Of a DNA stretch of 64,000 nt, positions 3,693 through 46,950 are shown one piece after another (position 1 is the stretch's first letter; every line of letters starts with the position of its first letter). Source of the stretch: Nitrospinae bacterium CG11_big_fil_rev_8_21_14_0_20_45_15 (GTDB lineage: Bacteria > Nitrospinota > Nitrospinia > Nitrospinales > VA-1); NCBI GenBank assembly GCA_002787235.1, contig PCWG01000035.1, positions 1-64,000 of the forward strand, given 5' to 3'. Under the pieces are notes generated by a model. That model ran no database searches. It was not told the DNA's origin and was given only the letters and a program-made list of their open reading frames with translations. A program made the position numbers and the translations under genes.

Positions 3693-4175
3693 ATGAGCAA
3701 GCGCGTAGACGATTTGATAAAAGAAGGGCTCTCTGAAAATGGGGAAATCCTCAACTTGAGAGATAAATTTCTTGGCTTGAGGGGTTCTATAGAACTGGCC
3801 AACAATCCCATCCTAAAAAACGTAAAGGAATTGATCTTGCCCAGCAATCAATGCGCCGATGAAGGAGCCGAAGCACTCGCAAACTCGCCCTACCTGGAAA
3901 ATCTTGAAATCCTCAACCTGAATCACAATGAGATCGGGGACGATGGGGCCATCGCTCTAGCAAACTCCACCAAATTACCGAAACTCAATAATCTATCTGT
4001 ATTTGGTAACGTCATTGGAGATTCAGGCGCACAAGCCTTTGCCAATTCCGAGCAAAGTAAGAAATACATCAAACTCGATCTCTACAAAAATCAATTTGGC
4101 AGTATTGGTTACAAGGCACTCACGGAATCGCCCAATTTAAAGAATTGTGAAGAACTGGAAGTGTATCGCGACTAG
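3693..4175 (+). CDS. Leucine-rich repeat protein, ribonuclease-inhibitor type
   Basis: 160 residues, no signal peptide, preceded by an AAGGAG ribosome site. After an N-terminal cap (about 5-38) come four repeats of about 28 residues with the pattern L..L.L..N.I.D.GA.A.A.S, typical of RI-like LRRs (LRR_6/LRR_RI). Such solenoids bind other proteins; no catalytic part is present, so this is probably a cytoplasmic adaptor. The cap and repeats are shared with the LRR proteins at 40248 and 40837. It stands as a single gene between two terminator-like hairpins. Partner unknown. Confidence 0.82.
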   Translation: MSKRVDDLIKEGLSENGEILNLRDKFLGLRGSIELANNPILKNVKELILPSNQCADEGAEALANSPYLENLEILNLNHNEIGDDGAIALANSTKLPKLNNLSVFGNVIGDSGAQAFANSEQSKKYIKLDLYKNQFGSIGYKALTESPNLKNCEELEVYRD

Positions 4176-5084: not shown

Positions 5085-8000
5085 ATGATGAAAAGTGACT
5101 GGTTAAAAACAACGATTCAAACGGGGCTTTACAGTTCACTGCTCTTTTTACTGATGTCCGCTGATCTGGCTTTTTCGAATCCAGAAGGGGGCGTTGTTCA
5201 ATCGGGCAATATCAATATAGAACAAGCCTCTCCCACTCGCTTGAACGTGATCCAGAGCTCCAATAAGGCCATCATTGATTGGCGATCCTTCAGTATCGAT
5301 ACTTCCGAACATACCGATTTTCAGATGCCTTCCTCAAACTCGGTGAACCTCAGTCGGGTCACCGGGGACAATCCTTCCAACATATTCGGGAAATTGACCG
5401 CTAATGGGAGGTTGATGCTCGTCAATCCCAACGGAATTCTATTTGGCAAAGATTCGCAGGTTGATGTCAACGGCTTGATTGCAACCACAAGCGACATTGA
5501 TAATAGGAACTTTCTTAAGGGTTTCTACTCGTTCCAACAAGCACCTCACTCAAGCAACACCATCATCAACCGTGGAGCCATCAACGTTGCTGATGGGGGT
5601 TTGCTGGCCCTTGTCGCCCCTGGAGTTGAGCATTTGGGAACCATCAACGCCAGATTCGCTCGTGTCACCCTCGCCTCAGGAACACAGTTCACCGTGGACT
5701 TGTACGGCGACGGTCTCATCAACCTGGGAGTGCGATATGTCTACAGAGATGCGGATTCATACGTTCCCCCGATCATCCAGTCGATTGAAAACTCCGGTCA
5801 GATCAATGCTCAAGGTGGAACGGTGGTGTTGGATATCAAATCAGCGCAAGATGTATTGAGCAACGTTGTCAATATGTCCGGTGTCGTCAACGCAAATTCC
5901 TTCTTCTCCCAAAAAGGAAAAATCATATTGAATGGAGACTCCCAAAGCATGGTTCGTGTTGCGGGAACCTTAAACGCTTCTGGCTCAGGAAACAATGAGC
6001 AAGCGGGCGAAATCGATATTTACGGCAATAAAATAGGACTGCTCGACACCGCCAAAATCGATGTGTCCAGCAACAATCATGGCGGCAAAGTCTTTATAGG
6101 GAGCAAAGCTTTCGGAATCTCACAACCGAACGGCAGGCAAGCTTCGCGTACCTACATGGCGTCTTCTGCAAGCATTGACGCATCCTCCTACGAAGCTGGC
6201 CCCGCAGGGGAGGTCAGTCTTTGGGGTGATTCCAGCCAGATTCTTGGAACCATCAAGGCACACGGAGGCTCTTTCGACGGTGTGGGTGGCAAAGTGACCA
6301 CGGCAGGCACAACCCATCTCGAAATCACCCAGGCCCCCAATGTATCCTCTGATTCGGGCAAAGCCGGTACTTGGGATATCATTTCAGATAATGTTGAAAT
6401 TGTTCGCAAACAAGCTCCACCAACAACCAACCCAGACCTCAGCGTTTTTGAATTTTCTGATTCCCCCACAAAATTAGCCGCCAGCATCCTGGAAGATGCT
6501 CTGAACACAGGAGCCCAAGTGAAGGTATCAAAGGGTTACTTTGGGAATCAACAGCCTGGTGGGAAAATCACCGTCAACGCGCCGATCAATTTTAGCGGAG
6601 GCGGCAGTCTCGCACTTGAGTCTGGTGGCGATGTGCAAATCAATGAAAATATCACTCTGGATCCTGTCGGGGAATCCCGCCCCACTCTCTCCATTTTTGC
6701 AGATACGAATCGGGATGGAGAAGGTGACTTTAACCTGGCAGAAGGAAAAACAATTTCATCATACAACGGTGTCATCAGGATTCAAGCAAGCGTTATTAAT
6801 CTTGAAGGCACCATAGACAATACGCGTGGTTATACCCACTTCCAAAATTCCACCGAAGATTCGGTGCACCTGGGCCGTGGAACCGGTGGATTTGTTTTAA
6901 ATGGCGAGGAACTGCAAAATATTTCGGGGAACATAATCTCGTTTAACAGTTACAACTTAGGGGATATTTACATTGATGGCCTGACCGAACAGAACACTCA
7001 AAATATCAATTATTTCCAAATCACCAGTTCAGACGAGTTGAGTTTTGTAAATAACGCATCCATTTTTAACACATTGTCCGCATCTGCCCATGGTAATTTA
7101 GCAGTCAAAGCCGACTTGACAATGAAAGGTTATGGCTCTTCCTTTTACAGCTTTGAAAAAGGGGCTAAATTTTATTTGGCTTCAGGAAGCACCATTAGAC
7201 ATACCAGTTATGGACTCACCTCTCTCTTTGCAGGAGATTTTGATATTCAAGGAAACATCCAAACTTCGAATTTGAATATAAACACCTATAAGAGCCAATC
7301 CTTGGGATTTGGGCAAGCCCATTGTGGAGGTTCTTGCGACGCACTTCTGGACAATCAGGAACTCACAAATATATCAACAAACAAAATGACTTTATTTGAT
7401 CCATATAAAGAGGAACTATCGATATATTTTGATGGCGTCACAGAAGAAGCTTTTTCCAACATCAACGAGTTCACCCTTCATGGGATGCCCAAGTATTACA
7501 AGGATTATAAGCAAACCAATATTATCTTTACCGGTGCCACCAATTTTTTACCGCGTGGGAAAATTGACCGCTGGGCAGATATCACTGTGGACTCTGAAGT
7601 CGTGGCAAAAGATATTCAGTGGTCGGTAGAAAATATAGACTTCACCCAGGCCGGGAAAATCACCGCCAGCCAATCCGCAAAACTCTCAACGGAAAAATGG
7701 GCGGAGGAAAATCAGGGAAATATAACAATGCACCAGAATTCCGTTATAGCCTCTCCGTATATCAACCTCGCCGCAAAAGAAGACATTACCTTGGGTTTGC
7801 TGGATGCGACGACTAACCCCACCCAATCCCCTCGTATCACTTTAAGTTCTCAAAACGGGTCCATTTACGACGGCGATACCAATGGTGCGCTGGACATCAA
7901 CGCGGGAAAAGGATTTCTCAAGGTATCAACCCCAAACAACTTTGGAACCGATGAGAACCCCATTGAAGTCATTGCCGGAAACGCAGATTTTTCCGACGTT

Positions 8001-9122
8001 GCGGGAACTGTCGGAACCCAATTGAGTTCCGAAAACGGCATCAATATTTTCAAAAACGCCAACTTTTCAGAATCGACGTCTATTGATGCCGATACAGATC
8101 GTGATGGCGAGGGAACGTTCAAAGTCTTCCGTCAAGCGACCGTATCGACTGCCAACAATCCCTTAAATATCACTGCGGGAGAAGTTGTGCTGGAGGGCAA
8201 GCTGGACAGTGGCTCGGCTAAAACCGCAATCACCTTGACGAAGAAAAATAATACGGGGATTGGGAATTCAAACTGCAATGGACCTTGTGGCAGTTCGATA
8301 AATAATACTGAGCTTCAACAAATCACCGCTGGCGAGCTGGAGATCACCACAACGGGTCAGACCTTCGTCAACGGCGTTTCCGAACAGTCCGCTTCAAAAT
8401 CAAACCTCAATGCCATCAAAAGCGAAAATAACATAGTCATTGCAGAATCCTCTTCGAGCTTCAAAAATATACTGATTGAAACCAGTGCCAATATCAATGT
8501 CGAAGCTTCGGTTTCTGCCCAGGCTGAATTATCCCTCAATGCCACAAACGTTGCATTTTCATCTCTAGGAAAAGCAACCGCTGAGACAGTGAACATCATC
8601 GCTAAAGAAAACCCACTGGCTCAGGGAGGATCGTTGACACAGGCTCCGCAATCTTCCATCAATGGCAACACCGTCAACCTGACTACCGATCAAAACATCG
8701 TTCTCGCCCAGGTCAATGTCTTGCCGGAAACTGAAAAAATGGGGTCTATTAATCTGATTTCAAACAAAGGGGATATTCTCAACGGTCTGAATACCGGCAT
8801 CAACATCAATGCCTCACAAGGCAATTTGAATGTTCAAAAAGCCAACAGTGTGGGAACCCAGAATAAAGCGATTGAGGTACTAGCGAGAAAATTGAGCATT
8901 GAGGATCCCGCAAAATTTACTCTTGTCCATATCATCAACCGTATCAACGAGAGCAACGCAGAAAAAACAATTTTTGGATTCGGTGCATCTGCAGAAGTCA
9001 TCAACCTGCAACCTTCTTCACCGCTTCCCAACGATCCTACCGATGGAGGCGCGTTCATTGTAGATCCTCTGGGACTCCTGGGACCTCAAGACGATTCTTT
9101 CAGCACAATAGGCCTGCCATAG
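5085..9122 (+). CDS. Filamentous-haemagglutinin-like exoprotein (TpsA type)
   Basis: 1345 residues. A signal peptide (about 1-31) is followed by a TPS secretion domain (about 32-160) with the diagnostic VNPNGILFG motif and nearby N-T-I-INRGAI-type segments. The remainder is low-complexity beta-helix sequence. Three related modules start near residues 594, 740 and 1057; the second and third carry paired Cys (HCGGSC, NCNGPC). Two DxNxDGxG loops, at about 540 (DTNRDGEGDF) and 1003 (DTDRDGEGTF), look like calcium-binding turns. Such proteins cross the outer membrane through a TpsB pore and act as adhesins; no TpsB gene lies in the window. The C-terminus lacks an autotransporter barrel. The ligand is unknown. 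Confidence 0.88.
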   Translation: MMKSDWLKTTIQTGLYSSLLFLLMSADLAFSNPEGGVVQSGNINIEQASPTRLNVIQSSNKAIIDWRSFSIDTSEHTDFQMPSSNSVNLSRVTGDNPSNIFGKLTANGRLMLVNPNGILFGKDSQVDVNGLIATTSDIDNRNFLKGFYSFQQAPHSSNTIINRGAINVADGGLLALVAPGVEHLGTINARFARVTLASGTQFTVDLYGDGLINLGVRYVYRDADSYVPPIIQSIENSGQINAQGGTVVLDIKSAQDVLSNVVNMSGVVNANSFFSQKGKIILNGDSQSMVRVAGTLNASGSGNNEQAGEIDIYGNKIGLLDTAKIDVSSNNHGGKVFIGSKAFGISQPNGRQASRTYMASSASIDASSYEAGPAGEVSLWGDSSQILGTIKAHGGSFDGVGGKVTTAGTTHLEITQAPNVSSDSGKAGTWDIISDNVEIVRKQAPPTTNPDLSVFEFSDSPTKLAASILEDALNTGAQVKVSKGYFGNQQPGGKITVNAPINFSGGGSLALESGGDVQINENITLDPVGESRPTLSIFADTNRDGEGDFNLAEGKTISSYNGVIRIQASVINLEGTIDNTRGYTHFQNSTEDSVHLGRGTGGFVLNGEELQNISGNIISFNSYNLGDIYIDGLTEQNTQNINYFQITSSDELSFVNNASIFNTLSASAHGNLAVKADLTMKGYGSSFYSFEKGAKFYLASGSTIRHTSYGLTSLFAGDFDIQGNIQTSNLNINTYKSQSLGFGQAHCGGSCDALLDNQELTNISTNKMTLFDPYKEELSIYFDGVTEEAFSNINEFTLHGMPKYYKDYKQTNIIFTGATNFLPRGKIDRWADITVDSEVVAKDIQWSVENIDFTQAGKITASQSAKLSTEKWAEENQGNITMHQNSVIASPYINLAAKEDITLGLLDATTNPTQSPRITLSSQNGSIYDGDTNGALDINAGKGFLKVSTPNNFGTDENPIEVIAGNADFSDVAGTVGTQLSSENGINIFKNANFSESTSIDADTDRDGEGTFKVFRQATVSTANNPLNITAGEVVLEGKLDSGSAKTAITLTKKNNTGIGNSNCNGPCGSSINNTELQQITAGELEITTTGQTFVNGVSEQSASKSNLNAIKSENNIVIAESSSSFKNILIETSANINVEASVSAQAELSLNATNVAFSSLGKATAETVNIIAKENPLAQGGSLTQAPQSSINGNTVNLTTDQNIVLAQVNVLPETEKMGSINLISNKGDILNGLNTGININASQGNLNVQKANSVGTQNKAIEVLARKLSIEDPAKFTLVHIINRINESNAEKTIFGFGASAEVINLQPSSPLPNDPTDGGAFIVDPLGLLGPQDDSFSTIGLP

Positions 9123-9360: not shown

Positions 9361-9642
9361 ATGGACCCTTCCGACAAACTCGAAGTTCTGGAATCCGTTG
9401 CGCAAAAACTCTCCATTACCATAGAAACGCACCATCTGGCGAACAATGAAATTGAGACCCGTAGTGGTCATTGTAAAATACGAGGGCGTCACTGGATCAT
9501 ATTGGACCAGAGCCTCCCTCTTCTTGAAAAAATAGCAATCATATCGCAGACACTTAAAAAATTTGATTTGGAATCCATCTACCTTCCCGCCTGGTTGCGC
9601 GAGGAAATGGAAAACCATCCCTTTGACGAACCGAAACCATGA
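9361..9642 (+). CDS. Conserved small protein of unknown function
   Basis: 93 residues, soluble, mixed alpha/beta in appearance, without Cys and without membrane segments. I recognise no domain. Its stop overlaps the start of the PEP mutase gene by four bases (ATGA), so the two are very probably translationally coupled and co-transcribed with proS downstream. The tight linkage and reasonable composition support a real gene. It could be a small accessory or regulatory protein; no function is claimed. Confidence 0.65.
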   Translation: MDPSDKLEVLESVAQKLSITIETHHLANNEIETRSGHCKIRGRHWIILDQSLPLLEKIAIISQTLKKFDLESIYLPAWLREEMENHPFDEPKP

Positions 9643-11399
9643 CACTCCTTAACAACACATTACCCGAACAAAGAAGAGGTAAATTAAAATCTCTTTTAAA
9701 GCAGAGAGCATTGGTCCGCGTATTGGAAGCCCACAACGGCTTGAGTGGCATTTTGGCCAACAACGTTTACGTAGAAGGTCAAACTGAAAATGGAACCATT
9801 CGTCATGAATACGATGCCATTTGGGAAAGTAGTTTGACCGACTCGGCATCCAAAGGTCACCCCGATATCGAAGTCATCAGTTTCGACTCGCGACTGGCAA
9901 CTATCAGTGAAATTCTCGCCGTTACTAACAAACCCATGATCGTGGATGGAGACACCGGCGGCGACCCGAATAATTTTGAATACATGGTTTCCAAGCTCGA
10001 ACGAGCAGGAGTCTCCGCCGTTATCATTGAAGACAAAGTTTTTCCCAAAAGGAACAGTCTCGAAACCGGAGCGCAACAAACTCTTGAAGACCCACAGGTC
10101 TTTGCCCAGAAAATCAAACGCGGAAAAAATATTTGCATGACCAATGACTTCCTGATCATCGCCCGCATCGAAAGCCTGATCGCCGGGAAAGATATGGATA
10201 CCGCCGTTCAGCGCGCAAAAATTTATCTGTCCGCAGGTGTAGATGGCATCATGATTCATTCTAAATCAAAACAACCCAACGAGGTTTTGGAATTTGCCAA
10301 AAGGTACAAGGCACTTCCTGAAAACCTGACAAAAGGCAAACCACTCGTTTGTGTGCCGACCACCTACAACACGATCACCGAGGATGAATTGGCAAAAGCA
10401 GGATTCAATATAGTGATCCACGCCAACCACCTGCTACGCAGTGCGTACAAGGCGATGGAAGAAACCGCGAAAATCATCCTCAGCAATCAACGTTCTTTCG
10501 AAGCCGATCCGCATTGCGCACTGGTACGCGATATTTTCTCAACCGTAGGTTTTCTTGATGTCAAAAAGAAAGACGAAGAAAATGAATTAACGACCAACAT
10601 CCCGACCATCATCCCAGCCGCAGGTGAAGACCCCACTTTAAAAGCCGAACTCAACGGCAAGCCCAAGGCCATGCTCGAAATCGGAGGGAAAACTTTATTA
10701 CAAAGACAGATCGAAGCATTGAATCATAACGATCTGACCGACATCACAGTCGTCACAGGCTACGCCGCAGATCAAATGAAAGCCGAAGGGGTTACATTTG
10801 TTGAGAACAAAAATTACCGGAATGGAACTTCTTTGCAGAGCATCCTTACCGCAAAAAATAAAATTCAACACGGTTGGCTCATGCTCTATGCCGACATTGT
10901 TTTACAGGATAATATTCTTCCCAAAATACTGGAATGCAAGGAAGACATCGTGTTGGTCGTAGACAGTGCCCCGCAATACCATCCCGGCGATAAGAGGACC
11001 ACGCTGGATTACGTTATCAGCAAACACAAGGCAAAACCCGCACGCCGGAAAATAAGCTTTGTTCATGAAAATATCATTGCCAAAATTGGCAACAAAATTA
11101 ATCCAGAAACGGCGACTCACGAATTCATCGGACTGGCAAAATTTTCAAAAACAGGAGCTGAACAATTTCTCCAAACTTATCAGGATTGCATACAAAACTA
11201 CAAAGGCAAGTTTCAGGAAGCCGACGACATCACACGGTTCAATTTCACAGACCTTATTCAGGAAATGATCGATAGGGGTTTTACCGTCAATTTTGTTGAG
11301 ATTCAACAAGGCTGGCTCGAAATCCATCAGCCTGAAGACATCGAGCTTGCCAACAAACTCTTTCAACAATCCGCATCCGAGCTCATTCAAACTCATTGA
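9639..11399 (+). CDS. PEP mutase fused to a nucleotidyltransferase
   Basis: 586 residues in two domains. Residues about 20-300 are a phosphoenolpyruvate phosphomutase of the isocitrate-lyase superfamily: EAHNGLSG (30-37), W62/S64, the metal-binding D103/D105 in VDGDTGG, and the mutase signature EDKVFPKRNS (131-140). The reaction is PEP to phosphonopyruvate, the entry step to C-P compounds. Residues about 320-580 resemble sugar/phosphonate nucleotidyltransferases (IIPAAGEDP at 324, then PKAMLEIGGKTLL); the usual G-x-G-x-R loop is altered. Activation of a phosphonate by CMP for attachment to lipid or glycan is the likely second role. No phosphonopyruvate decarboxylase or transaminase is nearby. 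Confidence 0.85.
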   Translation: MTLLNNTLPEQRRGKLKSLLKQRALVRVLEAHNGLSGILANNVYVEGQTENGTIRHEYDAIWESSLTDSASKGHPDIEVISFDSRLATISEILAVTNKPMIVDGDTGGDPNNFEYMVSKLERAGVSAVIIEDKVFPKRNSLETGAQQTLEDPQVFAQKIKRGKNICMTNDFLIIARIESLIAGKDMDTAVQRAKIYLSAGVDGIMIHSKSKQPNEVLEFAKRYKALPENLTKGKPLVCVPTTYNTITEDELAKAGFNIVIHANHLLRSAYKAMEETAKIILSNQRSFEADPHCALVRDIFSTVGFLDVKKKDEENELTTNIPTIIPAAGEDPTLKAELNGKPKAMLEIGGKTLLQRQIEALNHNDLTDITVVTGYAADQMKAEGVTFVENKNYRNGTSLQSILTAKNKIQHGWLMLYADIVLQDNILPKILECKEDIVLVVDSAPQYHPGDKRTTLDYVISKHKAKPARRKISFVHENIIAKIGNKINPETATHEFIGLAKFSKTGAEQFLQTYQDCIQNYKGKFQEADDITRFNFTDLIQEMIDRGFTVNFVEIQQGWLEIHQPEDIELANKLFQQSASELIQTH

Positions 11400-40247: not shown

Positions 40248-40844
40248 GTGGCCAGCGTCGAATATTTGATCAAACAGTTTCTAACACCCGATAAAAAAAT
40301 TCTTAATTTGAGTAATCAAAAGTTGGGCGATAAAGGAGCGATTGCTATCGCTAATTCTAAGGTTTTGAGTAAACTCAAACGCTTGAGTTTGCCCAATAAC
40401 AGTATCAGCGATGAAGGAATACTGGCTATTGCCGAGTCCGAATATTTCAAAAACCTCACCGAACTCGACATCTACGGAAACTTGATTGGAGACGACGGCG
40501 TCAAAGCCATTGCCGCATCCCCATATTTTAAAAAGCTGAACAAACTGTCCCTGTACAGCAATCTCGTTGAAGATGACGGTGCCATCGCTATTGCAGAATC
40601 AACCACTTTGATAAAATTAAAACATCTCTTTTTGACAGGCAACCGGATAAGGCGAGAAGGCGTCGAAGCACTTCGAGCGGCAAAATGCCGATCCCGATTG
40701 TGTCATCTTCATCTGGATGAAATTGAAGATTTCATTTACGAAGATGATATCGATGACGATGATGACGAGATCGCCATCACAAGCCTTGAGGATCTGAAAA
40801 GAATCAAAGAAAAAATGGCTGAAAGAAAAATTAAAAATGCCTGA
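40248..40844 (+). CDS. Leucine-rich repeat protein with acidic tail
   Basis: 198 residues from a GTG start preceded by TGGAG. An N-terminal cap (VEYLIKQFL..KKILNL) leads into about four RI-type repeats (L..L.L..N.I.DEG..AIAES), then an acidic stretch YEDDIDDDDDE (about 164-174) and a Lys-rich end. No signal peptide, so cytoplasmic. Closely related in cap and repeats to the proteins at 3693 and 40837. Its stop overlaps the next LRR gene by eight bases. Likely a protein-binding adaptor. Confidence 0.82.
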   Translation: MASVEYLIKQFLTPDKKILNLSNQKLGDKGAIAIANSKVLSKLKRLSLPNNSISDEGILAIAESEYFKNLTELDIYGNLIGDDGVKAIAASPYFKKLNKLSLYSNLVEDDGAIAIAESTTLIKLKHLFLTGNRIRREGVEALRAAKCRSRLCHLHLDEIEDFIYEDDIDDDDDEIAITSLEDLKRIKEKMAERKIKNA

Positions 40845-41415
40845 CGTTTTCGTCCCAACATTCCGCAAGAAATCATTCGCTATCTTATTAGCAATACTTC
40901 TTTGCGCGTTTCTTGGATCGATCTCTCATGCTCAAACTTTTCATAAAACAGCACCTGTCGATTATGCAGAGCTTTTTAAAAAGAACTTGAAAAAAGGTGG
41001 GCAATATTTAAATTTGAACGGGCAGAAAATCGGCGACGATGGCATTGCCGCTCTGGTCAAAAATCCTCTCATTCAAAATCTTGTTAAAATAGACTTGCGC
41101 TACAACGGCATCTCCACCGAGGGTGCCCGTATGCTTGCGCAAGCATCCTTTCCAAAACTGAAAGAACTGATTCTCAGACACAATATTTTAGGTGATGAGG
41201 GTGCAGAAGCGATCGCACTGTCAGAAGGCTTTCCAAAGCTTGAAGCCTTGCAATTGGGTTGGGCGGAAGTGCGCGACCGGGGGGCACTTGCATTTATAGA
41301 CCGCAAAATCACTGCGCTGGAGAAGCTGGATTTGCGTGGAAACTTTCTCGCAGACAGCACGAAGGACACTCTCAATAAAAAACTTTCCCACTTGAAGTCT
41401 TTAAAACTCTACTGA
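40837..41415 (+). CDS. Exported leucine-rich repeat protein
   Basis: 192 residues with a signal peptide (about 10-32, ending SISHAQ). The cap YAELFKKNLKKGGQYLNL matches that of its cytoplasmic neighbours, followed by four RI-type repeats (L..L.L..N.L.DEGAEAIAL). It therefore places the same fold in the periplasm or outside the cell. The start is inside the end of the preceding LRR gene, so the two are translationally coupled. Confidence 0.83.
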   Translation: MPDVFVPTFRKKSFAILLAILLCAFLGSISHAQTFHKTAPVDYAELFKKNLKKGGQYLNLNGQKIGDDGIAALVKNPLIQNLVKIDLRYNGISTEGARMLAQASFPKLKELILRHNILGDEGAEAIALSEGFPKLEALQLGWAEVRDRGALAFIDRKITALEKLDLRGNFLADSTKDTLNKKLSHLKSLKLY

Positions 41416-41505: not shown

Positions 41506-42495
41506 TCAGGAATCGATTTTATTTTTTGAGTTCAATGTGCTCTGGATATTGTTGAATACTGAAAGTGCCTGAGCTACCATCGACCCGGCATCACCCGTAT
41601 TTGCAGGAAGCAAGATGGTGTTTGTTTCCTTTGCCAATTTTGAAAATGCCGAAATGTACTGTTCGGCCAATCTCAACGCGACCGCCTTTTCACCCCCTGT
41701 TTTTTGAACAGACGCAGCAACCATTTCAATACCATCAGCAGTCGCACGGGCAACAGTTAGAATAGCCTCGGCTTCTCCTTTTGCCCTGTTTATTTGATCC
41801 GTCATAGCCGCTTCTGATTTTAAAACCACTTCTTGTTTGTAACCTTCTGCAATATTGATCTGCGATTGTCTTTGCCCCTCTGACTTCAATACCTCGGCCC
41901 TTTTTTGCCTTTCCGCCGCAACTTGAAGCTCCATTGCCTGTCGAACATTGTCAGGGGGTGTTATGTCTTTGATCTCATAGCGCAAGCACTGAATGCCCCA
42001 TGCAACAGAAGCTTCATTAATACTCTGAACAATATTGACATTTAGCATATCCCGTTCCAGAAAGGTTCTATCGAGAGTGATTTTTCCTAATTCTGACCTC
42101 ATGGTGGTTTGTGCCATTTGGGAAATAGCGTACCGGGCATCAGCCACACCATAGGAAGCCTGTTTGGGATCGGTAATTTTAAAGTATAGAATGCCGTCAA
42201 TAATCAAGGTGACATTATCATTCGTGATGGCACTTTGGCTGGGAATATCTACCGCTGTTTCCTTAAGAGAATGCTTATAAGCGACACTGTCGAGATAAGG
42301 AATGATAAAATTCAGACCAGGAATCAAAACTTCGTTAAACTTACCCAATCTCTCAATGACCCATGCCTGCTGTTGAGGGACAAGCCTGACCCCTTTTGTA
42401 ACCGTTAGGAAGATAAAAAATGCAACAACAAGATAGAAGGTAGATATCGAATCCATATCTTTAATGGCCTCAAGTAGAAAGTATATAATGTCCAT
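41506..42495 (-). CDS. SPFH/band 7 (stomatin-like) membrane protein
   Basis: 329 residues. A single N-terminal membrane segment (about 15-35) is followed by the band 7 domain with VPQQQAWVIERLGKFNEVL and FNI-type strands, then a long coiled coil containing RQKRAEVLKSEGQRQ and AEG/AKGEAEA motifs typical of slipin/QmcA proteins. Such proteins scaffold membrane microdomains and often regulate proteases. It shares one base with the NfeD gene upstream, the standard NfeD-stomatin pair. Confidence 0.93.
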   Translation of the reverse strand: MDIIYFLLEAIKDMDSISTFYLVVAFFIFLTVTKGVRLVPQQQAWVIERLGKFNEVLIPGLNFIIPYLDSVAYKHSLKETAVDIPSQSAITNDNVTLIIDGILYFKITDPKQASYGVADARYAISQMAQTTMRSELGKITLDRTFLERDMLNVNIVQSINEASVAWGIQCLRYEIKDITPPDNVRQAMELQVAAERQKRAEVLKSEGQRQSQINIAEGYKQEVVLKSEAAMTDQINRAKGEAEAILTVARATADGIEMVAASVQKTGGEKAVALRLAEQYISAFSKLAKETNTILLPANTGDAGSMVAQALSVFNNIQSTLNSKNKIDS

Positions 42496-42968
42496 TATTT
42501 TTGAGATTTTTCTTCCACAATCAAAATTCCCTTGCAGACTTCCCTTATAACGACCTCTTCTCCAACTTCAATAATTAGATTATCATCGCCCTCTGAGTGA
42601 AGTTCACACTTCATTATTGCTCCCGACCATTTCACTTCGCCGGATTTCCCCTTTTTCAAGGCAACTCCATAAACAATCGCGGTACTACCCACAATATCGT
42701 CAAACCCGGAATCTTTCACTTCAATAAATTTCTTTAAAGGCTTCCACAAACAAATGGCCCATGCACCGGTTGAAAGGAAGAACAATATAAACTGAGAGCT
42801 TGCAGTGTCAATCCATCCCGTTAACAAAACCCCTCCAACTGTGACGGCACCCAGGCCCGCAAACACCAAACCAATCCCTGGAATAAAAAAAACTTCAAAA
42901 ATAATGAGGAAAACACCAAAGGCTAGCCAGATTGAGCTTATTGGAAAATCGAAAGTCAAAGGATTCAT
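42495..42968 (-). CDS. NfeD-like membrane protein
   Basis: 157 residues with about three to four N-terminal membrane helices (for example WLAFGVFLIIFEVFFIPGIG) and a C-terminal OB-fold of about 60 residues (GSTAIVYGVALKKGKSGEVKW; ending in VVIREVCKGILIVEE). This is the short NfeD1b form without a protease domain. It partners stomatin-type proteins; its stop touches the start of the band 7 gene, which shows translational coupling. Confidence 0.92.
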   Translation of the reverse strand: MNPLTFDFPISSIWLAFGVFLIIFEVFFIPGIGLVFAGLGAVTVGGVLLTGWIDTASSQFILFFLSTGAWAICLWKPLKKFIEVKDSGFDDIVGSTAIVYGVALKKGKSGEVKWSGAIMKCELHSEGDDNLIIEVGEEVVIREVCKGILIVEEKSQK

Positions 42969-43181: not shown

Positions 43182-44747
43182 CTAATTTTTTGAAATGTTT
43201 TCGAATTCCTCAATGCGTTCCATAAGTCGATGCATCTTTTTGTCCAGGGTCGTAATATGGCGACCGATCTCGTCGATCTCTTTTCTTTCCTTGGATAAAT
43301 AAACCGTCCGGCATTTTTCCAAATGTTGCCCGATATGTTCGATCATATCGTGCACCTCTGTGCTTTCAAGCGACAGGTCCTCTGCCGTTTCCTGAAGCTC
43401 GATCATCGTTTCTTCAACCTCTTCCTGATTGGATAAGAGTAATTTCTTTTTACGCCCTCGGTTTCTTTGATAAAGAATCCAAAATCCTGAAAAAACAAGA
43501 CCCAGTAAACCCAGAGTGGCAAGATCAACCAACAATACAAAATAGGAACCAAAAAAACGTCCGGTATGAATTTCTGTGATCAGTTTGACCAAATCCATTT
43601 TGCGATCTTCTGACGCAAGTTTTTCACTGTTAGTTTCCAGCTCAGGCACACGCCAGGTTTTACCTTCATCAGAAGAAACGATCAATCCCTGGTCACTTGC
43701 CAACAATAAAACCGAATGGTTTACCTCCCCAAGATAAAGCAAATCCCCGATTTTAATCGGAGCATTTAACTCATCTTTGACATCGCTCAAAGAGATCTCT
43801 TTCCATTCATCACCCCCATTTTTCGTTTGAAAAATCTGATCTATTGAAGCTACGATCAAATGAGAAATATTTTTTTCAGACGATTGTATGAGATGAACCG
43901 ACTCAATATCGTTGTTTCGATCACGAACCCATGATCTGCCACCATTGAAAGATTTATATAATCCTTCTTGAGTCCCCGCATAAAAAAATTCGGGTTCTGC
44001 GGAAAGTGAAATCAAAGAATGTGGAATGGGCAACCGATCTTCCCAGACATTTTCCCAATCCGATTCTTCATTTTTTCTATAAACCCCCTGATTTGTCAGT
44101 AAATATACGGTATCCAGATCGACTGAGGAAAATACAACTTGATGAATGGTTGGTGGAGAATCGGAATTTTTTCCTGCAAAAGAGAGTTTCCAGCTTTCAC
44201 CCCCATCGTCGCTTGAATAAAGCCCCCCATTGGTCACTGCGTAGACAATGTCAGGGTCCTTTTGGTGAACTGCCAGGTGACTTACAACGGGATGAGCCAG
44301 GCCGCTCGCGACATCGAACCAGTCACTCCAATGCTCGCCGCCATCTTCCGATTTGAAAATTCCCTGCGGAGAACCCGCATAAACAATGTCCGGCATTTGA
44401 GGAGACAAAGCAAGGGCGCGGATGTCTTGAGAGAACAAACCTTCTTTAAGATGCGTCCATGTTTTGCCCCGATCGACCGATCGAAACAAACCGTGACGGG
44501 CACCCACGAATAATTTTGTTCCCTCTGGCGTTCCCGCAAGTGCTTGAACTTGTCTTTTACCAGATTCAATTTGAAAATATTTATCAGGAAGAAATGCGCC
44601 ATCCACCTCTTTGTGATTGAGACCCAGCTCATCGTAATGCATGAGCAATACACCTGTAACAGATAAAATCACCAGGAAGAAAGCACAAACCACACCCACC
44701 CAACGGTGTAAAAACCGTGAATTTTTAAACAAGGAGCGCACGTTCAA
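43182..44747 (-). CDS. PepSY-TM-like protein with BNR/Ycf48-type repeats
   Basis: 521 residues. An N-terminal helix with the PepSY-TM signature [19 protein letters not shown] (about 14-32) is followed by a periplasmic domain with at least four BNR Asp-box repeats ([40 protein letters not shown]), like photosynthesis-assembly factor Ycf48. [10 protein letters not shown] (about 397) leads into a second helix (about 405-425), and a cytoplasmic helical tail (about 445-515) contains H466, H471, H475, C479, H497 and H506. The tail is homologous to that of the upstream FTR1 protein, with which it overlaps by four bases. PepSY-TM proteins often reduce ferric siderophores in Fur regulons; a similar role is inferred. 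Confidence 0.82.
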
Positions 44748-46867
44748 ACCAATCCCTTATTTCCTTCCGTCGATACATTCAGCCGAGTCAAGCGTTCGAA
44801 CTCGCTGGACAATTGGTCTTCAACGGAGTGGACGTGGTTATACAGCTCATGAACTTTCTCATCGATCTCCTTCAAATGCTCTGATAATTCTTTGAGATCC
44901 TGATCTTTGGTGTCCTTTAAAAACACTTCACATCGTTTCGCGTGTTGCGAAATATGAGCGACCAGATCGTGAACGATAGCGATGTCTTGTTGAATCTTCC
45001 CAGCTTCTGCATGCAATTGTTTGTTTTCCACTTCGGGCTTGAACACAAAGGTATAAAGAAGTGCGAGGATATAAGCCAGAGCCAGAACCATTTGACCTGA
45101 GAAAGTCTCCCATGAAGGGTACATACCCAACCAGGAAATCTCTGGAGCAAAATCAGCCGCCGTCAAAGACAACTGCTCACCCATTTGCAACTCATGCAAT
45201 CCTTTTCCCATGAACACGAAAGCCATGAAATACAGAAAAACACTGGTCACCGCAAAGAACCATTTGATAGGAATTTTCATACCGGCTTTGGAGATCAGGT
45301 AGTAAATACCTGCAAGAATTAAACTTCCCACAAGAAATCCTGGAATGATTCCAGCCGTCCCCGGTCCCGCATACAAATAAAGAGCTTTGTAAAAAAGAAC
45401 AGTCTCAAATCCTTCTCGGTAGACTGATAAAAAGGCCACCATGCCCAGCGTGAGCAGACTTCCCTCTGACACCGCTTGTCGCATTTTCCCAGAAATATAA
45501 CTTTGCCATTTCGCCGCTTCTATTTTTGTCACCAGCCAATAACTGACCCAAAACAAGGCGACAACCGCGACAAGCATGATCCAGCCTTCCAGCAATTCCT
45601 GGCTGACTCGACTGATTTTAAGCACTTCGTGAAGAACATAAGCAGTGATAAAACTCGCCACAATACCAATGCCGGCCCCATAATAAATTGATTTTACCTT
45701 ATCTTCATTGCGGGATTTTGTTAGAAAAGTTATCAGTGCCGCGATGATAAGAATCGCCTCAAAACCTTCACGCACGATGATGGATAACGATTGCAGGAAA
45801 AGCCCGACAAACCCAATATTCTCTACCAGAACGTCGCTCGCCTGAGTCAAATCCTCATGTATATTCTTATGAATGCCTTCGACCAGATCCTGCGGGGCCT
45901 TGCGTTTGATTTCCGCACGATATCGGCTGAAAGAGGATTCCAGTCGCAGACCGAGTTCCTTGCGTTTGTTGACCAGCCCACCCTCAATCGATTCGTAGAC
46001 CATGTAAGCGTCGAATGCCATCTCCGACGCCGTATCTGCATCACCTTCCTTGAATAGTTGCAAACTTTGATCTAGCAGAGTGCGTGTCTCAGCAATTGTG
46101 TCCAATGCGTTTTTATCGCCAGAAGACGCTTCCGCCACTTTCGCAACGTCAGGCAAAGGAAGCTGAACATCTGCATTAGAAAATGAACGAATGTAATAAG
46201 TCACATCCCATATTTCCGCTTCCGTCAAGAACTCCGCCCAGGCAACCATTGCGGTATTCGCAATGCCAACGTTGATGACCTGGAAATTATCGTAAGGTCG
46301 CGTATCCGCATTGCCCGTAAACTTGGGATCGGACAAATCGGTGGGAGGCGGTGTGAGAGTAGCCGCAAGTGGACCGTTGCCCTTGCCTTCGAGACCATGA
46401 CACAATACACATCGGCTTTGATAAATCAGCTTGCCATTGTCCAAATTGACCGCTTGAGCCGGGGTAAATTTGATCTCAACTTGAAACTGTTTCTGAAGAT
46501 TTTCGTTGATCGCGTTGATTTCCGCCCGAACTTTTCCAGGATCTATTTTCGTTCGACTGCTTTCCTCCAACGCATCAAACGCCGCTATCAACGCCGACGA
46601 TTCAGCTCCCGGATGTTTCGCAGCCAGCGATTTGAAACGAGTCGAGGCCTGTCCTAAAAAAATAAGACTTTCCTCATATTCCGCTGAATTTATAATTTTG
46701 CCGTCCGCAATACCCTCGTGATATTCCTTGGCCGCGATATTCAACATCATGACTATTTTTTTAACCTTCATTTCCACCTCTGCCGTCGAAGCAGAAGACA
46801 AAACAGGGTGACCGAGCGAAAGGAAGATTAAAAATAATAAGGATAAAGCAGACTTCAATGAATTCAT
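44744..46867 (-). CDS. FTR1 iron permease with periplasmic cytochrome c domain
   Basis: 707 residues. Signal peptide (about 1-27), a helical periplasmic region, a c-type haem site C153-x2-C156-H157 ([13 protein letters not shown]), a further helical part, then the FTR1/EfeU permease with seven or so helices and two REGFE iron-binding motifs ([10 protein letters not shown] and [10 protein letters not shown]). A cytoplasmic C-terminal tail (about 620-707) carries H633, H638, H642, C646, H664 and H673 and matches the tail of the downstream gene. It should import iron across the inner membrane, with the cytochrome domain handling electron transfer to or from iron. A Fur box lies 69 bases upstream. 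Confidence 0.93.
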
Positions 46868-46935: not shown

Positions 46936-46950
46936 TGATAATTATTATCA
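46936..46950 (-). promoter_or_regulatory. Fur box upstream of FTR1 operon
   Basis: The sequence tgataattattatca is a near-perfect inverted repeat that matches the core of the classic Fur consensus (GATAATGATAATCATTATC). It lies 69-83 bases upstream of the FTR1 start, in AT-rich DNA where the promoter would be. Iron-dependent repression of the two-gene operon is the expected outcome. Confidence 0.8.

Follow-up and report, generated by a model that had tools for sequence, protein, structure and literature searches.

The C-terminal tails of two neighbouring membrane proteins from a Nitrospinota iron operon, an FTR1 iron permease and a PepSY-BNR protein, are members of one homologous family, marked by His, Cys and Asp residues at fixed positions. 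The family was found in two phyla among the genomes searched, Nitrospinota and one second phylum, and in most of its contexts it sits within recognisable iron-import operons. Reading from sequence, we propose, with about equal weight for and against, that the tail may be a small metal-binding domain, located in the cytosol and working on the inner side of bacterial systems for Fe(II) import.

Results

An FTR1 permease and a PepSY-BNR protein under a Fur box

The window (the whole 64 kb stretch of DNA analysed) carries two minus-strand genes that overlap by 4 bases, the stop codon of FTR1 running into the TTG start of PepSY-BNR (Table 1). From N- to C-terminus, FTR1 consists of a signal peptide, a helical region, a c-type cytochrome domain, a seven-TM FTR1 domain and the tail. 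The CxxCH haem c site, whose C153, C156 and H157 are nearly invariant in the ortholog alignment, places the N-terminal half of the protein in the periplasm. Membership of the permease family is indicated by the PF03239 match, by two REGxE motifs and by seven TMs read from model and sequence; in the second motif R484, E485, G486 and E488 are invariant among FTR1 orthologues and F487 nearly so.

PepSY-BNR is laid out as TM1, a periplasmic Ycf48-like propeller, TM2 and the tail. It combines the PF03929 match with the conserved membrane histidines of the PepSY_TM family, H14, H37 and H394 being invariant in 34 sequences. A Foldseek search with its model matched Ycf48 (2.6e-14) and returned Ycf48/GH74-type propellers and unrelated helical assemblies, and nothing else.

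The Fur box precedes the FTR1 start codon by 68 bases and is the sole perfect match within the window. Among the upstream regions of 32 orthologues, 26 have a best Fur-box match of 12/14 or better, a level that shuffled regions reach in roughly 1% of trials. Inside the PepSY gene, at 44572, there is a weak Fur-like match, which was discarded as no more than chance would produce. Just downstream of the operon, on the same strand (41506-42968), are a slipin/stomatin-like gene and an NfeD-like gene.

Table 1. Positions of the features discussed, in window coordinates.
Feature	Position	Strand	Evidence
Perfect 7-1-7 Fur box TGATAATNATTATCA	46936-46950	.	0 mismatches; upstream of FTR1 gene
FTR1 iron permease, 707 aa	44744..46867	-	Pfam FTR1 PF03239 2.7e-25 (above cut-off); Cytochrom_C 4.4e-9
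CxxCH haem c site, FTR1 residues 153-157	46397..46411	-	Sequence
First REGFE iron-permease motif, FTR1 residues 366-370	45758..45772	-	Invariant among orthologues
Second REGFE iron-permease motif, FTR1 residues 484-488	45404..45418	-	Sequence, orthologues
His/Cys domain on FTR1 (predicted hairpin)	44807..44992	-	Profile match E 1.7e-26
PepSY-BNR membrane protein, 521 aa, TTG start	43182..44747	-	Pfam PepSY_TM PF03929 4.2e-12 (above cut-off); PSII_BNR 2.2e-13
His/Cys domain on PepSY-BNR (predicted hairpin)	43191..43370	-	Profile match E 3.0e-29

The two tails are homologous

A sequence-only reading of this DNA had placed the related tails at FTR1 residues 630-681 (44825-44980) and PepSY-BNR residues 463-514 (43206-43361), both on the minus strand, and had aligned them without a gap around the pattern V-H-D-x3-H-I-x-Q-H-x3-C, with a His 18 residues after the Cys and the next His 9 residues later. 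Coordinates and alignment were both reproduced, with 15/53 identities. BLASTP of one tail against the other gave an E value of 3e-8. The ungapped score of 105 compares with 27 +/- 5 for plain shuffles and with 43 +/- 11 for shuffles that keep the hydrophobic/polar pattern (maximum 89, 0/1000 reaching the observed score), and the chance coincidence of the five His between the tails has a hypergeometric P of 7e-6. Profile comparison, which the earlier reading had singled out as able to overturn the relationship, found it significant: hhalign of the FTR1-tail family against the PepSY-tail family gave a probability of 97.5% and a P of 8e-12. We conclude that the FTR1 and PepSY tails are one homologous family.

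Pfam and NCBIfam offered no model above its curated cut-off for the tail, in agreement with the earlier view of a shared module fitting no named domain. Sub-threshold matches were mostly to coiled-coil families; Pfam matches to ACBP4_C, COG5_N and laminin were rejected as coiled-coil noise, being below cut-off and different from tail to tail. No hemerythrin profile that might have pointed to a hemerythrin-like di-iron bundle was among the Pfam or NCBIfam matches. A sequence search of the PDB found no relative of the whole hairpin, the best matches being GCN4-type coiled coils that align to part of helix 2.

Conserved potential ligands on a predicted helical hairpin

Candidate ligands are H633, H638, H642, C646, H664, D669 and H673 in the FTR1 tail and H466, E470, H471, H475, C479, H497, D502 and H506 in the PepSY-BNR tail. 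The tails of 40-odd relatives were aligned, and a wider set was used for ligand counts. The motif reads H-x3-[ED]-H-x3-H-x3-C in helix 1 and H-x4-D-x3-H in helix 2, thus taking in an Asp five residues past His4 and an acidic residue directly preceding His2; the FTR1 copy in the window has Ala at the acidic position before H638.

The initial claim that five His and the Cys are invariant held in full for the His of FTR1, each present in 48/48 tails, and less strictly elsewhere. FTR1 tails have the Cys in 46/48 and the Asp in 44/48. In PepSY-BNR tails (n=37), His3, His4 and Asp are present in all, the Cys in 36, His2 in 35, His1 in 34 and His5 in 31; two genus-level groups have lost His5 along with His1 or His2. 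Conservation of His and Cys in orthologues had also been named as a point on which the idea could fail. The ligands are kept, and these counts support the proposed selection on potential ligands within the iron operon.

Five main classes, described below, comprise 103 sequences: 48 FTR1, 10 second-phylum FTR1, 37 PepSY-BNR, 5 short PepSY and 3 free proteins. His3 and His4 were found in 103/103 and the Asp in 99/103, at fixed positions within the helix-turn-helix by which the family is recognised; two weaker outliers deviate. The Cys is present in 91/95 FTR1 and PepSY-BNR tails. Short PepSY and free forms are without the Cys and free forms without His1; free or PepSY-only forms retain His2-His5. 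The losses of the Cys and of His1 across classes, and of His5 along with His1 or His2 in the two PepSY-BNR groups, are incompatible with a universal site using all ligands. A tree of the tails, built on 62 columns, mostly groups them by host protein, with low deep support and columns too few to read a history from it.

Structure prediction gives the tail as a helix-turn-helix. Helices span residues 586-650 and 656-701 in the AlphaFold model of FTR1, which is of low confidence (pTM 0.36, tail pLDDT about 65-72), and in the PepSY-BNR model a long helix at 401-483 is followed by a turn and a helix at 489-520, the tail again scoring poorly (pLDDT about 45-67). When the tail is drawn on a helical wheel as an idealised hairpin, one face carries His2, His3, the Cys and His4, and the opposite face His1, the Asp and His5; by rough geometry the Cys-His4 distance in such a hairpin is 6-8 A. 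The wheel also shows the hairpins to be amphipathic, with a regular hydrophobic stripe. Past its periplasmic CxxCH domain FTR1 has an odd TM count and positive-inside loops (read by eye), and TM2 of PepSY-BNR is followed by the basic stretch RNRGRKKK. From the seven TMs after the periplasmic cytochrome, and from this basic stretch, we infer that both tails are cytosolic.

Distribution in Nitrospinota

Profile searches detected the tail in 52/77 Nitrospinota genomes. All 40 genomes with PepSY-BNR also have a tail-bearing FTR1. In eight more the FTR1 tail was found but PepSY-BNR was not detected (G007, G012, G015, G023, G056, G060, G062 and G064); several of these assemblies are incomplete, but completeness is 94% or higher for G007, G015, G023, G056 and G062. 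A tail-less FTR1 occurs in 7 genomes, with PepSY-BNR in 0/7. All these co-occurrence counts ignore kinship. The existence of several tail-less FTR1 proteins implies that the tail is not essential to permeation.

FTR1 was not detected in four genomes of one family (G072, G073, G075 and G076; f9), which encode a tail-bearing short PepSY protein (two TMs, ~209 aa) next to a porin-like and an FMN_bind-like protein. These four operons are not clearly iron operons; analogy with one second-phylum locus (L191, below) suggests that they may be iron-related. With the FTR1 tail alone in 8 Nitrospinota genomes and the PepSY tail alone in 4, the earlier suggestion that the module specifically links the two proteins was not upheld.

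Several individual loci depart from the common layout. In G017 (L070, 608-1939) PepSY-BNR stops directly after TM2 and has lost the tail, while the neighbouring FTR1 keeps its own. The PepSY-BNR gene of G003 is split, its start lying beside FTR1 and its tail-bearing end ~1 Mb off on the other strand (C1:1411507-1411860, L045, and C1:357684-358202, L044), through either rearrangement or assembly error. G050 (L155, 4487-6970) encodes an FTR1 of ~828 aa without the tail, in which the N-terminal cytochrome region is apparently duplicated.

The tail in a second phylum and beside FeoB

A domain-wide genome sample led to G245, a tail-bearing genome outside Nitrospinota, and this was the sole match when ~310 non-Nitrospinota genomes were searched again across the domain with an improved profile. 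Relatives of G245 encode tail-bearing FTR1 proteins of ~480-500 aa, in many cases with the full set of five His plus the Cys. Several of these FTR1 operons also contain an Fer4_5 polyferredoxin, P19 (PF10634, 1.8e-62) and a porin, and other second-phylum FTR1 loci have a Fur-like gene close by. In G611 (L191) a short PepSY protein with the tail is clustered with FeoB, a DtxR-FeoA fusion, Fur, FMN_bind and a porin. Finally, in G449, G542 and G589 the motif stands on a free protein (~85 aa) whose gene immediately follows that of FeoB, in the company of a DtxR-type regulator; FeoA was confirmed in one of these three loci, and no FeoC model of Pfam or NCBIfam matched the free form. In G603 (L190, near 1876-2025) a tail-like stretch lies in a separate short frame soon after a 348-aa FTR1 frame, and the two may have been split by a frameshift or stop.

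The free form beside FeoB shows that the tail needs no fusion to FTR1 or PepSY. A private FTR1-PepSY link was rejected on the distribution as a whole, which includes second-phylum FTR1 without PepSY and PepSY beside FeoB. The tails may have a shared partner, but the common factor seen is Fe(II) import.

Discussion

Since most contexts share Fe(II) import and its regulators and no particular partner, the tail is best considered as a candidate receiver of Fe(II). Each tail would be an antiparallel hairpin. One metal site could be built from the ligands that share a face, His2, His3, Cys and His4, and a second hairpin could complete another with His1, Asp and His5 on the opposite face. Fe(II) exiting the permease would be caught by the tail and handed on or buffered, and so kept from the labile pool. 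PepSY-BNR would act in the same uptake step as a haem-dependent transmembrane electron carrier, likely filling, by analogy, the role of the polyferredoxin of the second phylum, and its tail might draw it to FTR1, buffer iron beside FTR1 or share a site. A precedent for the receiver is E. coli FeoB, whose cytosolic Cys/His C-terminus has been proposed as an acceptor of Fe(II) (PMC10647171), and published work connects PepSY proteins with iron transporters and with haem-based reduction of iron outside the cytosol (PMC8238504, PMC13038864). A bolder version, which the sequences make conceivable and which we advance only tentatively, would have the tails be an iron chaperone family docked on transporters, on FTR1, on a PepSY reductase or free beside FeoB, acting as the immediate cytosolic acceptor of Fe(II); in Nitrospinota a site split between FTR1 and PepSY would couple iron entry to electron transfer.

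The strongest competitor, which we nevertheless judge unlikely, is that the tail is mainly a dimerisation or docking helix: FTR1 and PepSY tails would pair into a four-helix bundle, free copies would sit on FeoB, and the His would be interface residues and not ligands. The amphipathic hairpins and their hydrophobic stripe would suit such a bundle, a two-TM PepSY protein must pair to reach the usual four TMs of its superfamily (PMC13038864), and among FTR1-bearing genomes loss of the tail and loss of PepSY-BNR coincide. However, the His, Cys and Asp are under tighter conservation than most of the remaining surface, the FTR1 His motif is kept in the 8 genomes without detected PepSY-BNR, and His2-His5 are kept in free or PepSY-only forms. 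The PepSY protein at L070 is without a tail although its FTR1 retains one.

A role in binding haem b or in cytosolic redox work, such as docking of a donor for the PepSY haem protein or re-reduction of iron after FTR1, seems improbable. PepSY_TM relatives do use His-ligated haem with a cytosolic donor (PMC13038864), the FTR1 described here carries cytochrome c, and a set of five His and one Cys would be able to ligate haem; against this, the free form occurs in feoA-feoB with no haem protein seen nearby, and Cys and His1 are dispensable across classes. We give similarly little credence to the tail being an iron sensor that gates the importer or signals repletion instead of relaying iron. As a small domain found on several unrelated importers, always outside the transport core, and absent from some FTR1 proteins as a regulatory add-on would predict, it has the look of one, but on PepSY a gating role for it is not evident. 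That the tail is a structural Zn(II) site without any part in iron handling is very improbable: three His and a Cys are a common Zn site and the Cys is widely kept on FTR1 and PepSY-BNR (91/95), but most contexts are iron-import genes, many with a Fur box or Fur/DtxR regulator genes.

The preferred reading of the tail as a cytosolic metal-binding domain would add to known appendages of this kind. In the VIT1 family, a helical cytosolic iron-binding domain with Glu/Met ligands is carried on an iron transporter. Compared by description, that domain and the tail are both helical and cytosolic (for the tail, as predicted) and differ in ligands and fold context. The E. coli FeoB C-terminus extends an Fe(II) importer into the cytosol and offers potential ligands, as the tail is predicted to do; again by description, it is a short Cys-rich peptide, reported for gammaproteobacteria, whereas the tail is a His-rich predicted hairpin (PMC10647171). 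FeoC and other small third feo genes resemble the free form in its place directly after feoB, but by sequence the free form belongs with the FTR1 and PepSY tails. FTR1/P19 systems (FetM-FetP, FtrABCD; PMC6083913) share the FTR1 permease, and the second-phylum loci also have P19 and the Fer4_5 polyferredoxin; the passages of PMC6083913 consulted describe no such tail for these systems. The FTR1 of the window, by comparison, has cytochrome c fused to it and PepSY-BNR as its paired gene, and P19 is not beside it. The PepSY_TM metal reductases FoxB, VciB and CrpH (PMC13038864, PMC8238504) likewise have PepSY TMs, conserved His and links to iron transporters and FMN-binding proteins; PepSY-BNR differs in having two TMs, a Ycf48-like propeller between them and a His hairpin predicted to be cytosolic. 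Transporters with metal-binding appendages in the cytosol are known, and the tail is an unnamed family with its own motif on FTR1, on PepSY and in a free FeoB-linked protein.

Across the FTR1, PepSY and FeoB contexts the tail offers a concrete candidate for the cytosolic recipient of Fe(II) from bacterial importers, and the free 85-residue form (L176:3026-3280) should be easily expressed and tested. The system also occurs in Nitrospina-type bacteria, which are marine nitrite oxidisers living in an iron-poor setting.

Other features of the window

Three small leucine-rich-repeat (RNI-like) proteins with similar repeats are encoded at 3693-4175, 40248-40844 and 40837-41415, two of them overlapping in tandem. 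The product of 5085-9122 is a 1345-aa protein resembling filamentous-haemagglutinin-like secreted proteins. That of 9639-11399 reads as a phosphoenolpyruvate mutase-nucleotidyltransferase fusion, which suggests phosphonate metabolism.
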